Source: an uncultured Bacillota bacterium
Lineage (GTDB): Bacteria > Bacillota_I > Bacilli_A > RFN20 > CAG-288
Direction of reading: 5' to 3'
Length of the DNA stretch: 64,000 nt
Assembly: GCA_949284445.1 (NCBI GenBank)
Contig: CASDVP010000004.1
Span: forward strand, 1-64,000
Of the stretch, positions 44,443 to 63,819 are shown piece after piece. The notes beneath the pieces were generated by a model. It did not search any database. It saw only the letters and a program-made list of their open reading frames with translations, and had not been told where the DNA came from. Every line of letters begins with the position of its first letter. Positions within the stretch are counted from its first letter, which is position 1. The translations under genes were made by a program, and so were the position numbers.

Positions 44443-44471
44443 TTGAAAAGAGAGTAGCAAACTACTATATT
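44443..44471 (+). promoter_or_regulatory. Promoter of the lipoprotein pair
   Basis: TTGAAA (44443-44448), 17 nt, TATATT (44466-44471). A short inverted repeat, AGTAG-N4-CTACT (44453-44466), sits in the spacer and could be an operator. GAGGAGGA precedes the downstream ATG. Confidence 0.65.
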
Positions 44472-44519
44472 AGTAAGGATTATTCTCTGTGATTAAGCTA
44501 TTCAACGAGGAGGACACAC

Positions 44520-46553
44520 ATGAATAAAGGGACAAAGGCCTTTTCCTTAGCGATGAGTGTGATACTTATCGCTGGTGTTCTAGCTTCCTGTAGCACATCC
44601 GAATACACTTATCCGGACGCTTCATGGAAGGACAATGTCATCGTTAACATCGGTGGCAAAGAGTACACCTATGATGAGATTTATAAGTTGTTTGATGGTG
44701 AACAAGCTTCTGCACAAGCTTATTACAACACTGCCAAAAATGTTTTGGCTCAAATTGTGACACCTGTCAACTCTGCTATCACCAGTTATGTCAATGGTCA
44801 GATCGATGACCAAGAACAGACTTGGAAAGATAACGCAGAAACCAACAACACTTCTTATAAAGAGGAGCAAGAAACTACTTTTGAAGAAGAAAATGTCGAT
44901 AATATGGACGAATATCGTGCAAAATTGATCGCCCAAAGACAGAATGAAGTCAATTCAAATTCTTATTATATCGATACTTTAAGCGATGATGCTGATGGCG
45001 GCTACTATTATATTTCTAAAGCCGACGCACAAGAATTTGTTGAGAAATCTGCACCATATCATGTTTCACATGTTTTGGTCCAATTGGATGCTGAGTCCAC
45101 TGCTAGCGGATCCGGTATTTGGGATGGTCATATCTCAAGCACCGATGCCCAACAGATCTTCACTGTTGTTTCTGCTTTATCTTCAACGACTACTTTCGGT
45201 AATGTCGCTAGAGACTACTCTGATGATTCTTCTTCAGATTCCTATGGTGATTTAGGCGGCTCATCCGGTGCAGCTTTGACCAAAACCACCAGTTATGTCA
45301 ATGAATTTAAATTAGGTATTTATGCCTATGATGCTTTTATCAATCCGGAAACTAAGGATGATGAAGAATTAAAAGTTTCTTTACAAGTTCCTGGTGCTAC
45401 TTCTGGTGAAGGTCACGATAGCCCTGTTGCTACAGATATCGCTTCTACTGAAATTGGACAAGGAAAAGCCTATGGTATCCCGGTCTCTGTCGCTTTTAGA
45501 CTCGGATATGTCGCTAATCAAGAAAACGCTGATAACGGACAGAACGTCTCTTATACTTCTGAGACACAATATCCTAGAAATATCTTGTTTAACAACTATT
45601 TCAATAATCACTCCGTCTCTTTCATCTATAACGATCAAGATGAGTATGCAGCAAACTTCTTAAAGGATGTCAACGCTGTCTATGGTAAGAGCTATACTCA
45701 GATCAGCGAGATGAGAGCTGAAGCTGCTTCTAATCCGGCTTTGATGAGCAGAATCAATGAATACGATTATGTCATGGCTCAATTCGGTCGTATTTCTGAT
45801 ACCAAATTTAAGACAGTCAATAATGTCTCTAATAATTTAGTTGCCTATACTTATACTGATAGCACCTCCACCACTGCTGAAATTTCTGCTCTCAGCGGTA
45901 GCAAAAAAATCTTGGTCGATGAATACGGAGATCCGATCATCGTCACCAGAGCTGGTTCCGGTTCTACTTCTGATGGCTCTGAAAGTTCTGGATATCAAGG
46001 TATCCACTTCATCGTCGTCAAGGAAAATCCTTTTGTTGATAAAGAGAACTCTTATAAATATTGGAGAGTCAACGTTCCTTCTAATGATAGCGATGCTACT
46101 GAAGCTGACTCCTTCGATTACAACACTCATCCATCCTATGTCAATTACGTGAGAGCTGATCACGATTCCAATACCACTTATAACACTCGTATTGAAAATG
46201 TTCGCACTTCTGTAAAAGGCTCCGATGCTAACTATGATTTCAAACTCTTCGAAAAGAACCTTGCTAGTTATCAAGCTAACCACGGCGGAACCTCTTTCTA
46301 TGACGCTTTAGGCGACAATAAAGATGAGATCCAAAGTTTGATTGAAAATTATATCCAATTCACACGTGAGAGCAGCGAAACAAGCAATATCAAGAGTTTA
46401 AATGATTCTTGGGTAACCTATATCCAACAACTCAACCTCTTTGAAGATTATGCACCTAAGAGAGTAGTTCCTACTGTTTGCGTCTCTTACTTCCAAAGCG
46501 GCTCTTATGGTCAAAACGGAGAAATGGAGGCTCTTTGCCATGTTGAAAGATAA
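44520..46553 (+). CDS. Lipoprotein with parvulin-like region (PrsA-type foldase candidate)
   Basis: This 677-residue protein has a lipoprotein signal (basic start, hydrophobic helix, lipobox Leu-Ala-Ser-Cys with Cys24). After a SurA/PrsA-like helical region, residues about 175-290 resemble a parvulin prolyl isomerase: APYHVSHVLVQLD, then ARDYSDDSSSDSYGDLGG. An Asp/Ser/Thr-rich insert and a C-terminal region follow. It is more than twice the length of Bacillus PrsA, and some parvulin catalytic residues are not obvious, so activity is uncertain. It ends inside the next lipoprotein gene (14-nt overlap), forming a pair. Confidence 0.8.
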   Translation: MNKGTKAFSLAMSVILIAGVLASCSTSEYTYPDASWKDNVIVNIGGKEYTYDEIYKLFDGEQASAQAYYNTAKNVLAQIVTPVNSAITSYVNGQIDDQEQTWKDNAETNNTSYKEEQETTFEEENVDNMDEYRAKLIAQRQNEVNSNSYYIDTLSDDADGGYYYISKADAQEFVEKSAPYHVSHVLVQLDAESTASGSGIWDGHISSTDAQQIFTVVSALSSTTTFGNVARDYSDDSSSDSYGDLGGSSGAALTKTTSYVNEFKLGIYAYDAFINPETKDDEELKVSLQVPGATSGEGHDSPVATDIASTEIGQGKAYGIPVSVAFRLGYVANQENADNGQNVSYTSETQYPRNILFNNYFNNHSVSFIYNDQDEYAANFLKDVNAVYGKSYTQISEMRAEAASNPALMSRINEYDYVMAQFGRISDTKFKTVNNVSNNLVAYTYTDSTSTTAEISALSGSKKILVDEYGDPIIVTRAGSGSTSDGSESSGYQGIHFIVVKENPFVDKENSYKYWRVNVPSNDSDATEADSFDYNTHPSYVNYVRADHDSNTTYNTRIENVRTSVKGSDANYDFKLFEKNLASYQANHGGTSFYDALGDNKDEIQSLIENYIQFTRESSETSNIKSLNDSWVTYIQQLNLFEDYAPKRVVPTVCVSYFQSGSYGQNGEMEALCHVER

Positions 46554-48258
46554 AAAGAAAAATTTTTCCTTATTTTTATCAGGAATCGCTCTTTTCACAT
46601 TAGCTTCCTGTAGCACTGAACAGATCAAATTGCCTTCTGATTACAGTGAGAATCTCTTCCCTAATTTAACCGGTGATGTCGTTCAAGACACCAAAGAAGA
46701 ATATTATGATAATTTGACAAGTTCTGATAGCGTCTATGAGAAGACTTTAAACCAAGCTTTATTAAAGCTTTCAACTATCGCTCACGATAATAATGGTGGA
46801 ACAGATGGCTCTGATGTCGTCAATGTCATCAACGACAATTATGAGGGTTCTGTCGCTGATGGAACTTATCCATCAGTTTCCGATGCTGATAACCTTTTAC
46901 ATCGCGCTGAGAATGATCTCTTAGGCATTTCCAAAAACGGAACTTATGAAGAAGATAATCTCTTCAAAGAAAAGCTTTATGTCGATTCTTTAAAGAGAGC
47001 CTTCACCCTTCCTGAAGATCCTTTGACTGATAATCCAGATCCTGCTGGTGTTTTAGTCACCCCTGACTTGAAATTCGATGATGTATTCCAAGGCAAAAAA
47101 GATGCCTATGTGAAATACATGGAAAAGTATCTCTATGATGATATGCGCATCAATTATTTAGTCGCCGAATACATCTATGAAGTCTCTTATTCTTCGATCG
47201 GTAACTCCAATGCTAGAAATGTTGAAATCATTTCTTTGACTGATCGTGAAGATCAACCCGGTGCTGCTAAAGCCTTATTAGATGCTTACGTCAACGATTA
47301 TGTTTTCGGTGATAAAGGCAGTGATGATGGATTTAAAATTCTTTCTAGATTATGGAAAGGTATCACTCAAGAAGTCGCTGATAACATCGATCAAGGCGAT
47401 GAAGATCCTGACCAATATTCAGATAGATATGATTCTGTCAAGCTCAGTTCTGAAGAAGAAAATTGGATGAAAGATCATCATCTCATCGTCGATTCTGGCG
47501 AAGATAGCACTTATACCTACTATGGAACTTTAGCGGGTAAAGTTGTCGATGATCAAAAGAAACTCATCGATGGTCAAAATAACATGAACTTAGCTGATAC
47601 TTCCTTAGAGTCCTCTTATACCGGTTCTTATACATATGATTTCACCACCGGTGTCAGACGTGCTATCGATGATATCGCGACCAGTGATTTAGTCACTAAT
47701 GGCATCTATTTACAAAGCGATGGTGTCAGCGGTATTCCTTCCTCGATCTCTGAGCGTATTTTCTCTACTAATATCACTATCAAGAAAGATGAGATCAATA
47801 ATATGAAAGCCAATCCTGGAACCAATAATTTTGATATCACCACTTATGGTAATGATGGTTATCGTTATCTGACAGTTCCTAACACTGTTGCAACCCCTGG
47901 TTCTGGTGATACTCTCACTCCTGATGATATCATCTTCTATGATAAAGATTCTCGCACTTATTATTTAGTCAGAATCTTAGATGTCGTCAACACTCAATCC
48001 ATGTCTAAAAATAGCACCATTTCTGTCTACGATACTGAAGCTAAGAGAGAACAGATCGGTAGAGAAGTCGCTTATGTGATGTCTACCACTGGTTCTTATA
48101 AGACTGAAGCTATCGTCTATTGGCTCAGAAGAGTCAGAGATATCAAGTATTCTGATGACGGTTTCTTAGAATATATGAAATCTAATTATCCTGAACTCTT
48201 CCGCACTGAATCTCCTTACGACGATGAGGAAAAGTATCCGACAATCACTCTTCAATAA
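46540..48258 (+). CDS. Second large lipoprotein, unidentified (possible chaperone partner)
   Basis: This 572-residue protein also has a lipobox Leu-Ala-Ser-Cys with Cys at residue 24, in the same register as its neighbour. The rest is soluble, Asp/Ser/Tyr-rich and predicted mostly helical, with a C-terminal YDKDSRTYYLVRILDVV segment reminiscent of the end of SurA/PrsA proteins. No recognised catalytic motif is present. I place the start at ATG 46540, which has GGAGG upstream, rather than an upstream ATG at 46507 inside the previous gene. A strong terminator follows. Confidence 0.78.
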   Translation: MLKDKKKNFSLFLSGIALFTLASCSTEQIKLPSDYSENLFPNLTGDVVQDTKEEYYDNLTSSDSVYEKTLNQALLKLSTIAHDNNGGTDGSDVVNVINDNYEGSVADGTYPSVSDADNLLHRAENDLLGISKNGTYEEDNLFKEKLYVDSLKRAFTLPEDPLTDNPDPAGVLVTPDLKFDDVFQGKKDAYVKYMEKYLYDDMRINYLVAEYIYEVSYSSIGNSNARNVEIISLTDREDQPGAAKALLDAYVNDYVFGDKGSDDGFKILSRLWKGITQEVADNIDQGDEDPDQYSDRYDSVKLSSEEENWMKDHHLIVDSGEDSTYTYYGTLAGKVVDDQKKLIDGQNNMNLADTSLESSYTGSYTYDFTTGVRRAIDDIATSDLVTNGIYLQSDGVSGIPSSISERIFSTNITIKKDEINNMKANPGTNNFDITTYGNDGYRYLTVPNTVATPGSGDTLTPDDIIFYDKDSRTYYLVRILDVVNTQSMSKNSTISVYDTEAKREQIGREVAYVMSTTGSYKTEAIVYWLRRVRDIKYSDDGFLEYMKSNYPELFRTESPYDDEEKYPTITLQ

Positions 48259-48282
48259 ATTCGATTAAAAGCTTAAAATATA

Positions 48283-48311
48283 GGAGAAGGTGAAACAGCC
48301 TTCTCCTTTTT
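48283..48311 (+). terminator. Terminator of the lipoprotein pair
   Basis: GGAGAAGG (48283-48290) pairs perfectly with CCTTCTCC (48299-48306) over an 8-nt loop and is followed by TTTTT. Confidence 0.93.
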
Positions 48312-48332
48312 ACAATCGGAGGTTTATCAAAA

Positions 48333-48743
48333 ATGGAATCTTGTGTGTTCTGTAAAATCGCACGCGGTGAAATACCGTGCTATAAAGTTTACGAAGATGA
48401 TATCTGCTTAGCTTTTTTGGATATCAATCCTGCTAATAAAGGTCATACTTTAGTTTTACCGAAAGAGCATTTTCGAGATATGACTACTTGCCCCAAAGAT
48501 ATTTTGGCTCATCTGTTCTCGATCGCTCAGCTCATCGCCCAAGCTCAAATCTCGCAGCTTGGGGCGACAGGTATCAATGTCATCACCAATGTCGGTGCCT
48601 CTTCTGGTCAAACAGTCATGCACTTCCATATTCATGTCATCCCTCGTTATGATGATGATGGACTGAAATTATCATTACCTCCGCAGAAGATCGGTGAGCA
48701 TGATCTGCTCTTATTAGCCGACTCTATCCGCAAAGGCATCTGA
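48333..48743 (+). CDS. HIT family nucleotide hydrolase
   Basis: This 136-residue protein of the HINT/Hit branch hydrolyses nucleotide phosphoramidates or dinucleotides. It begins CVFCKIARGEIPCYKVYED, conserves DINPANKGHTLVLPKEH, and has the histidine triad HFHIHVIPR (about 101-109). GGAGG precedes the ATG. It lies between the lipoprotein terminator and the suf promoter, so it is transcribed on its own or by read-through. Confidence 0.95.
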   Translation: MESCVFCKIARGEIPCYKVYEDDICLAFLDINPANKGHTLVLPKEHFRDMTTCPKDILAHLFSIAQLIAQAQISQLGATGINVITNVGASSGQTVMHFHIHVIPRYDDDGLKLSLPPQKIGEHDLLLLADSIRKGI

Positions 48744-63208: not shown

Positions 63209-63819
63209 ATTTTATAAATAAGTATCGCTTTCAATTAAAAATCGTTTTGTTTTCTCTTTTGCTTGCGATTTTGCTCGTTTTAGATATCATCACTAAATAC
63301 ACCGCCTTTAATAATTTGAGTCAGTATGAAGCAGTCACTGCTATACCCTATCTTTTCAACTTCACTTTAGTCTTTAACAAAGGCGCTGGTTGGGGAATGT
63401 TCGAAGATCAAAAATGGTTTTTGTGTACGGTATCGGCAGTTTTAGGAACAGCGATTCTTGGATTTTTAATCTATAGATTCAAGAAGTTAAGACTACCGGT
63501 TATCATCGCTTTAGTCTTGATGGTCGCTGGCGCGTATGGAAATCTCATCGACCGAATAGGTTATGCTGCTTCTTTAGGTATTTATAAAGAAGGTGTTGTC
63601 GATTTTCTTCAATTCGCTTTTTGGACTTCATTTCCTGTGTTTAATCTCGCTGATTCCTATCTTGTCATCGGTATTTTTATTCTGATCATCTATGCGATAG
63701 TGCTCTTTATCAATGAACATTTTTATAACAAGAATAAAGTTAAATCCGAACCTGAATTGAGCGATGAAGACTTGGCTAAAAGAATCACTGAGAAGAAGGA
63801 TGAAATAAACCATGAATAA
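63205..63819 (+). CDS. lspA: Lipoprotein signal peptidase LspA
   Basis: Aspartic membrane protease that cleaves lipoprotein signals after diacylglyceryl transfer. The 204 residues show four transmembrane helices (about 10-30, 68-88, 97-115, 145-170) and the two catalytic Asp regions GNLIDRIGYAASLG (about 113-126) and FPVFNLADSYLVIG (about 147-160). The start is GTG at 63205, inside the end of ileS. A charged C-terminal tail of about 30 residues is longer than usual. It would process the lipoproteins at 44520 and 46540. Confidence 0.97.
   Translation: MNFINKYRFQLKIVLFSLLLAILLVLDIITKYTAFNNLSQYEAVTAIPYLFNFTLVFNKGAGWGMFEDQKWFLCTVSAVLGTAILGFLIYRFKKLRLPVIIALVLMVAGAYGNLIDRIGYAASLGIYKEGVVDFLQFAFWTSFPVFNLADSYLVIGIFILIIYAIVLFINEHFYNKNKVKSEPELSDEDLAKRITEKKDEINHE

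Follow-up and report, generated by a model that had tools for sequence, protein, structure and literature searches.

An enlarged two-gene variant of the PrsA system in an order of uncultured Bacilli

In Gram-positive bacteria PrsA is a central factor in protein folding, a Sec-exported and lipid-anchored protein active in post-translocational folding and usually pictured as a small homodimer. On contig CASDVP010000004.1 of an uncultured Bacillota bacterium (GCA_949284445.1, GTDB order RFN20), of which positions 1 to 64,000 (the window) were analysed, two successive genes, LIP1 and LIP2, encode lipoproteins of 677 and 572 residues, against about 290 residues for PrsA (the NCBIfam PrsA model has 287 positions). 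The original prediction had seen a parvulin-like region in the first protein and had proposed a two-subunit extracytoplasmic folding complex far larger than Bacillus PrsA. The locus raises the question of whether two adjacent proteins of this size belong to the PrsA system and, if so, what each of them contributes. Our analysis identifies the pair as a variant of the known PrsA system that is enlarged, duplicated and divided, and supports the earlier reading in substance. In the explanation that we favour, with a probability of roughly 0.7, LIP1 and LIP2 would be a PrsA-derived extracytoplasmic foldase turned into a two-gene system, the heteromer and its activity being what we infer. The two genes are as follows.

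44520..46553, + strand: LIP1, a 677-aa lipoprotein, an enlarged PrsA-type parvulin
46540..48258, + strand: LIP2, a 572-aa lipoprotein, an enlarged PrsA-derived paralogue without active-site histidines

The open reading frames share 14 nucleotides when LIP2 is read from the ATG at 46540, the earliest start codon in its frame being 46507, and both proteins carry Cys24 within a lipobox in which this cysteine is invariant; the sizes, lipobox and overlap are thus as first described.

LIP1 and its parvulin domain

The two motifs behind the parvulin call, HVSHVLVQLD and YGDLGG, are present in LIP1 at residues 181-190 and 242-247. Rotamase_3 (PF13616) is matched at E <=0.01 by 19 of the 31 members of the LIP1 family alignment A1 (best 2.5e-9), the window protein not being among them, and Rotamase by 15 of the 31, while a PDB search with the family profile picks up parvulins, PrsA and SurA among them, at an E-value of 1e-6. 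Because family members match Rotamase_3 we consider the parvulin assignment secure, though the window protein alone is sub-threshold. In profile comparisons, for which signal peptides were removed and reversed-alignment controls gave 0.0-1.1% throughout, LIP1 matches PrsA proteins from other Bacilli at 99.8% (E 1.4e-29; reversed control 0.1%). A search of 59 genomes with PF00639 gave matches in 27, one in each, and 26 of these lie within LIP1 genes already located; the remaining match (G029) is a 684-codon frame without a LIP1 match, and the window's own genome has no PF00639 match at threshold. Searches of PDB sequences with the single LIP1 and LIP2 proteins returned nothing useful.

The AlphaFold model of LIP1 (69 sequences; pLDDT 84.8, pTM 0.85) predicts the arrangement known from PrsA, a helical N- and C-terminal chaperone domain around a parvulin domain, with the following parts.

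44670..45050, + strand: N-terminal helical (PrsA/SurA-like chaperone) domain, residues 51-177, predicted from the model (residues 1-60 mostly of low confidence) and aligning with PrsA
45045..45341, + strand: first part of the parvulin domain, residues 176-274, with H184 and D236
45342..45938, + strand: predicted insert that splits the parvulin domain (about residues 275-473); its RN...N...N motif (353-362) is near-invariant in A1
45939..46031, + strand: predicted second part of the parvulin domain, residues 474-504, with H496; placed by the model, the sequence alignment of this piece alone not being significant
46170..46499, + strand: C-terminal helices, residues 551-660, predicted from the model

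The model aligns with the PrsA parvulin fragment 6xd8 over 91 residues (Z 5.4, root-mean-square deviation (rmsd) 2.3, 29% identity) and with Bacillus subtilis PrsA (4wo7) over 236 residues (Z 7.6, rmsd 10.7), so that a parvulin fold, the isomerase-like fold expected of the first protein, is present in it. Since the 91 residues aligned to 6xd8 span positions 176-504, the parvulin domain appears interrupted, by an insertion of about 200 residues; the interruption rests on the model because the sequence alignment of the second half is not significant. Between LIP1 residues 268 and 494 the family has 129-268 residues (median 180) and the window protein 226. Resemblance to PrsA of Bacillus, Listeria, Staphylococcus and Enterococcus therefore extends from the lipoprotein character and the combination of helical chaperone and parvulin domains to an H/D/H site, whereas the split parvulin domain and the second adjacent gene, whose product is without active-site histidines, set the pair apart. 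The parvulin-containing chaperone body plan is also that of SurA from the Gram-negative periplasm, with which LIP1 aligns (1m5y, 2pv3; Z 5.5-5.7, rmsd 12-14); SurA is a soluble, periplasmic protein that is not known to have a lipid anchor or a partner gene beside its own.

The residues of the putative active site are retained almost throughout the 69 LIP1 homologues: H184 in 66, D236 in 68 and H496 in 67. They are the counterparts of H146, D194 and H239 of Staphylococcus aureus PrsA, for which the part of that study cited here leaves open whether the histidines have a catalytic or a structural role (PMC2678132). Within the insertion R353, N354, N358 and N362 are near-invariant in A1, an alignment that was not selected on the RN...N...N motif; their invariance in a further alignment, A3, is meaningless because that motif was its search pattern. 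In the window protein the corresponding stretch reads PRNILFNNYFN (residues 352-362, window positions 45573-45605). One A1 member matches the Listeria-Bacteroides repeat. Taken together, family profiles and predicted fold identify LIP1 as a divergent PrsA-type parvulin.

LIP2 and the trail through PrsA-prime

For LIP2 the original prediction had allowed only a SurA-like flavour at the C-terminus. The likeness holds, but its supposed limit does not, for the protein itself has, by its predicted structure and its profile relations, a PrsA-derived fold without the active-site histidines. In the structural matches of its AlphaFold model (pLDDT 83.9, pTM 0.83) 10 of the 12 top rows carry a PrsA, SurA or peptidyl-prolyl isomerase title, the other two, 3nrk and 9a7d, are presumably relatives, and from row 13 onward Z is at most 3.3. 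The model aligns with 4wo7 over 247 residues (Z 7.2, rmsd 6.2), and both LIP models also align with the PrsA structures 5htf and 9ibn. Pfam and NCBIfam scans of 32 LIP2 members found no family common to more than 4 of them, and the three PDB rows obtained with the LIP2 profile A4 (best E 0.025) were taken as chance.

Direct homology between LIP1 and LIP2 was tried and rejected, hhalign without signal peptides giving 0.2%; an earlier comparison at 96% was left unused, as the aligned region did not reach beyond the lipoprotein signal common to both and roughly the first 80 residues. The relation between the two proteins was therefore traced through a third. At the HIT loci of two other Bacilli families (f20 and f25) an ordinary-sized PrsA (321-363 aa) stands beside a protein of 281-333 aa, here called PrsA-prime. 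Of these loci 24 were gathered, 4 from the HIT search and 20 fetched from the PrsA-prime match list, out of 49 f20/f25 genomes with a match; in the 20 fetched loci the two genes are adjacent without exception, and HIT follows the pair directly in 15, follows after an intervening reading frame in 1, is divergent in 1 and was unseen in 3. The PrsA and PrsA-prime profiles match at 99.4% (E 5.5e-22; reversed control 0.2%), LIP2 matches PrsA-prime at 93.8% (E 1.7e-7; reversed control 0.3%), and LIP1 matches PrsA-prime with an E-value of 1.9e-7. The LIP2/PrsA-prime alignment consists of three colinear pieces (93.8%, 46% and 7%) with LIP2 insertions in between, and the PrsA-prime profile matches LIP2 genes in five genomes of the order (8.5e-7 in G049, 5.1e-6 in G041, 1.6e-5 in G048, 1.6e-4 in G095 and 2.7e-4 in G031, E-values being per single genome).

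The gap to PrsA itself is bridged by the shorter second proteins of the order's families f2, f4 and f6 (n=11, 299-486 aa when trimmed), some of which were chosen solely by position, beside LIP1 or before HIT. Their profile matches LIP2 with an E-value of 5.4e-41, PrsA-prime with 4.4e-18 over 272 columns and PrsA with 9.5e-9.

Loss of the histidines is common to LIP2 and PrsA-prime. No PrsA-prime protein has them (0 of 24), and in LIP2 residues 224-235 and 470-483 histidine occurs in at most 2 of 69 proteins at any column. These stretches contain the strands that we read as the following equivalents.

47215..47241, + strand: LIP2 residues 226-234, strand read as the equivalent of parvulin strand 1, no conserved His
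47956..47985, + strand: LIP2 residues 473-482, strand read as the last parvulin strand, no conserved His

Because the active-site histidines are missing, LIP2 is called PrsA-derived and not an active PrsA. At f20 loci (L233, L234 and others) both members of the pair may be non-catalytic, PrsA itself being without histidines there.

Pairing of the genes and layout of the locus

Searches of 117 genomes of the order located LIP1 in 102 of them and LIP2 in 85. Adjacency was counted over the 101 genomes with LIP1 that remain when G082 is left out; 81 of these had a position for both genes, and in every one the two matched stretches are found on a single contig and strand, with -10 to 2,738 bases between them (a distance between stretches, not gene ends). 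At 40 mapped loci both genes were labelled in 35 and were neighbours every time, and HIT was labelled in 33 of the 40. Ten of the 20 genomes with LIP1 only were fetched: LIP2 adjoins LIP1 in 7, and in the other 3 an unlabelled reading frame of 419-479 aa occupies that place. A genome-contig collection, of which the best 80 of 151 confirmed loci were used, gave the same picture, with LIP1 called in 77, LIP2 in 77 and both in 74, as neighbours in 74/74. The genes overlap in 51 of these 74 loci, lie 1-31 nt apart in 18 and have larger gaps by the start rule in 5, where the distance from the end of LIP1 to the opening of the LIP2 frame is -55 to 13 nt in four cases and 205 nt in the fifth. Together with the 20/20 f20/f25 loci these counts bear out the expectation that the pair is always adjacent in relatives, and no separation was found. 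HIT lies downstream in 69 of the 77 loci with LIP2 (54 by motif, 15 more by tblastn), the other 8 carrying less than 1 kb past LIP2.

The titles of the locus records are mostly uncultured Bacilli and Erysipelotrichaceae, with Candidatus Alloenteromonas, Onthovivens, Scatoplasma and Fiminaster, taxa that we take to belong to GTDB order RFN20. One record carrying the locus (L160) is titled Staphylococcus epidermidis, a metagenome-assembled genome, and its title is probably wrong. Three loci of family f4 (L072, L074 and L097) have extra tandem copies of LIP type, in L072 for example LIP1-like, LIP2-like, LIP1-like and a further reading frame, with HIT unlabelled nearby. Antisense open frames of 794 and 779 aa stand where LIP2 and LIP1 are expected in L062 (about 2535) and L099 (about 3390), probably as an effect of codon usage. 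In L067 (6719-8480) YhaM-like and RecX-like genes lie 3' of HIT in the opposite direction, and similar-sized reading frames occur at other loci; prsA, yhaM and hit are presumably near one another in Bacillus.

In the window the pair is accompanied by the following signals and neighbour.

44443..44471, + strand: promoter-like site TTGAAA-17-TATATT, 5' of LIP1, within what shuffling of the region leads one to expect
44507..44513, + strand: Shine-Dalgarno-like GAGGAGG of LIP1 (from sequence)
46526..46530, + strand: Shine-Dalgarno-like GGAGG of LIP2, within LIP1 (from sequence)
48282..48312, + strand: intrinsic-terminator-like hairpin in the LIP2-HIT spacer, kept in relatives
48333..48743, + strand: HIT (HinT-like) gene, as a rule third in the locus, NCBIfam M_plasma_HinT

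Each gene is preceded by a purine-rich ribosome site. Of the promoter and strong terminator that had been ascribed to the pair, the second is the better founded. The promoter-like site, a 10/12 match ending 48 nt upstream of the LIP1 ATG, is only plausible, because the 17 sites observed in the region are no better than the background expectation of 12.6 +/- 3.9. The hairpin AGGAGAAGG/CCTTCTCCT, followed by T's, lies between LIP2 and HIT, where a simple terminator scan flagged it on the minus strand only; a hairpin followed by T's recurs in 46 of 52 relatives' motif-located LIP2-HIT spacers shorter than 300 nt, against a mean of 0.05 in base-shuffled spacers, and in 48 of 54 once two long spacers are included. 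Among relatives the sequence of the hairpin has changed while the hairpin is retained and the genes are still neighbours. Since this conserved terminator precedes HIT, LIP1, LIP2 and HIT are not established as one operon, and any functional tie of the pair to HIT is putative. HIT of the window matches M_plasma_HinT with E 1e-28 and 100 bits, below the curated cut-off of 130.

Genes for Lgt and LspA were found in the genome, the lipoprotein signal peptidase gene lspA lying in the same window (63262-63699); the machinery for the probable lipidation of both proteins is thus encoded. LIP1 is single-copy in its own genome. A reading of the locus as a repeat or antigen array was set aside, as the direct repeats in the genes are short and LIP1 is single-copy.

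A proposed divided foldase, its rivals and the mycoplasma complex

The explanation that we favour would start from an ancestral tandem duplication that gave PrsA and a degenerate PrsA-prime, after which, in the order of uncultured Bacilli, insertions would have enlarged both proteins to about twice the usual size. LIP1 and LIP2 would be exported by Sec, lipidated at Cys24 and anchored at the outer face of the membrane. LIP1 would combine a helical chaperone cradle and C-terminal helices with a parvulin prolyl-isomerase domain that has kept its active-site residues despite the insert of about 200 residues, while LIP2, with the body plan of LIP1 but without its histidines, would most likely be a non-catalytic chaperone half. 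A LIP1-LIP2 heteromer may then replace the PrsA homodimer and would act on newly exported proteins; LIP1 would provide surfaces for isomerisation and for chaperoning and LIP2 a further surface for chaperoning, much as other duplicated homomers have turned into heteromers in which one subunit is inactive. Such a heteromer would agree with the overlap of the genes, their constant pairing and the enlargement of both proteins in parallel, none of which is proof. PpiD is a parvulin relative. In PpiD-YfgM of Escherichia coli two exported, membrane-anchored proteins are described, in the part of that report used here, as working as a unit near the Sec translocon (PMC9643414); both have an N-terminal transmembrane segment, which sets them apart from the LIP pair.

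Several results weigh against this explanation. In Pfam the window's LIP1 alone reached parvulin models only below threshold (Rotamase_3 at E 0.01, Rotamase at 0.021), and it matches no NCBIfam PrsA model; at most 7 of the 31 A1 members match any single SurA, PrsA or peptidyl-prolyl isomerase NCBIfam model among those listed (E up to 1; best 1.6e-7). Because no curated PrsA model matched, LIP1 is filed as a divergent variant and not as a canonical PrsA. The second half of its parvulin domain has a sequence alignment of only 0.1% probability. LIP2 has no direct sequence match to any PrsA model in the Pfam, NCBIfam and PDB searches, and its direct profile comparison with PrsA gave none either (1.3%). 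Foldseek E-values are weak (best 8e-3 for LIP1 and 5e-3 for LIP2, none below 0.001), and best Z scores of 7-8 are common for models without a clear match. Among ordinary-sized PrsA proteins both histidines are present in 8 of 9 in f25 and in 0 of 15 in f20; catalysis is not constant in the lineage, since the f20 proteins have lost both. Retention of the residues in LIP1 is likewise no proof of activity, as the role of the S. aureus histidines is left open in the source (PMC2678132).

Could both proteins descend from PrsA and yet act separately, LIP1 as a foldase and LIP2 in a repurposed role such as substrate binding or surface structure, with adjacency serving co-expression only? The far divergence of LIP2 and the loss of its histidines would suit such a division, but we think it unlikely, given that the genes are neighbours wherever both were located in the order and in every fetched f20/f25 locus, that they overlap in most relatives, and that the products of like-placed Mycoplasma hominis genes are described, in the part of the paper cited, as a surface complex (PMC539234).

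That complex brings in a further rival. In M. hominis P80, P60 and HinT (hitABL operon; NF045833, NF045835, NF045834) are encoded in one operon and P80 binds HinT, according to the portion of the study cited (PMC1173108). LIP1 and LIP2 might be counterparts of P80 and P60 that serve in contact with the host or in signalling together with HIT, and the parvulin fold would then be a relic. The order of a large protein, a smaller lipoprotein and HIT is common to both systems, HIT matches M_plasma_HinT, and the LIP1 and P80 profiles match in their N-terminal part, weakly (73%, E 3e-5; other profiles 53%, 2% and 0.2%). Such a reading is quite improbable all the same: a relic would hardly keep its active-site residues in 66-68 of 69 LIP1 proteins, the terminator in front of HIT speaks against its tight co-expression with the pair, and P60 as a homologue of LIP2 found no support (0.1%). 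M. hominis P80 is signal-anchored whereas LIP1 is a lipoprotein, and because LIP1 and LIP2 gave no match to NF045833 or NF045835, which are also absent from the 25 of 28 and 25 of 27 families listed for their homologues, they are not filed as P80 and P60. That the pair are lipoproteins of unrelated function with a chance likeness to parvulins would account for the window LIP1 falling below Pfam cut-offs and for LIP2 having no family, but is very improbable in the face of the Rotamase_3 matches in A1, the LIP1-PrsA profile match and two PrsA-like models.

Descent is another matter, and by position P80-P60-HinT and LIP1-LIP2-HIT are likely to share theirs, unproven as this is by sequence. Family f22 was sampled through HinT matches, and in all 20 loci fetched proteins of 701-735 and 398-594 aa precede HinT; NCBIfam names them P80 and P60 with strong matches in the 2 loci tested, in which neither has a Pfam parvulin. 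Family f11 may be spiroplasma- or mesoplasma-like. Of its 15 fetched loci, likewise selected through HIT, 14 have a pair of large proteins (726-980 and 548-809 aa) immediately before HIT, L263 having intervening reading frames, and suf-type genes lie divergent upstream, as in many loci of the LIP order and of f20/f25; a single f29 locus is without a large-protein pair. Profile comparisons of the second f11 protein with LIP2 (45.7%, E 2e-4) and of the first with LIP1 (5.4%, or 13.8% with a combined profile) are suggestive only. The LIP1 and PrsA-prime profiles also gave single-sequence matches at f11 loci (E 4e-5 to 1e-4, small search set), but these were disregarded, since a protein encoded away from the locus in the f11 genome L265 reached 3e-5 as well.

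The top structural match of the LIP1 model is Mpn444, an essential lipoprotein of Mycoplasma pneumoniae (9gn0; Z 8.5, 350 residues, rmsd 7.9, chain 50-616, TM-score 0.29), and LIP2 matches its residues 730-1295 weakly (Z 2.8, rank 24). Mpn444 is one long chain where LIP1 and LIP2 are two proteins, and the models weakly suggest that it may be a fusion of both halves; it is absent from the sequence matches of the LIP1 and LIP2 profiles. A literature search found no paper on the Mpn444 structure and nothing relevant on a PrsA-translocon link in M. pneumoniae, nor, in titles and abstract openings with few subscription journals covered, a report of a PrsA/PrsA-prime pair or of P80/P60 as PrsA relatives. 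We tentatively suggest, at somewhat less than even odds, that the P80-P60-HinT complex and the f11 pair go back to a PrsA/PrsA-prime foldase pair encoded in tandem in Bacilli; LIP1-LIP2 would be an enlarged form of it that still has active-site residues, and Mpn444 might be a fusion of both halves.

Most of the genomes searched in this order of uncultured Bacilli have PrsA in a version made up of two genes, at twice the size, with one member that has and one that lacks the active-site histidines and, by the model, a domain inserted in the isomerase. In itself the pair is of moderate interest, which would be greater if the mycoplasma complex were thereby explained: the locus offers a testable function for P80/P60/HinT, described some 20 years ago with no settled role in the parts of the papers cited (PMC1173108; PMC539234). 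Should the shared descent from a foldase pair hold, the mycoplasma P80-P60-HinT complex would be a translocation-coupled folding machine and not an antigen of unknown function.

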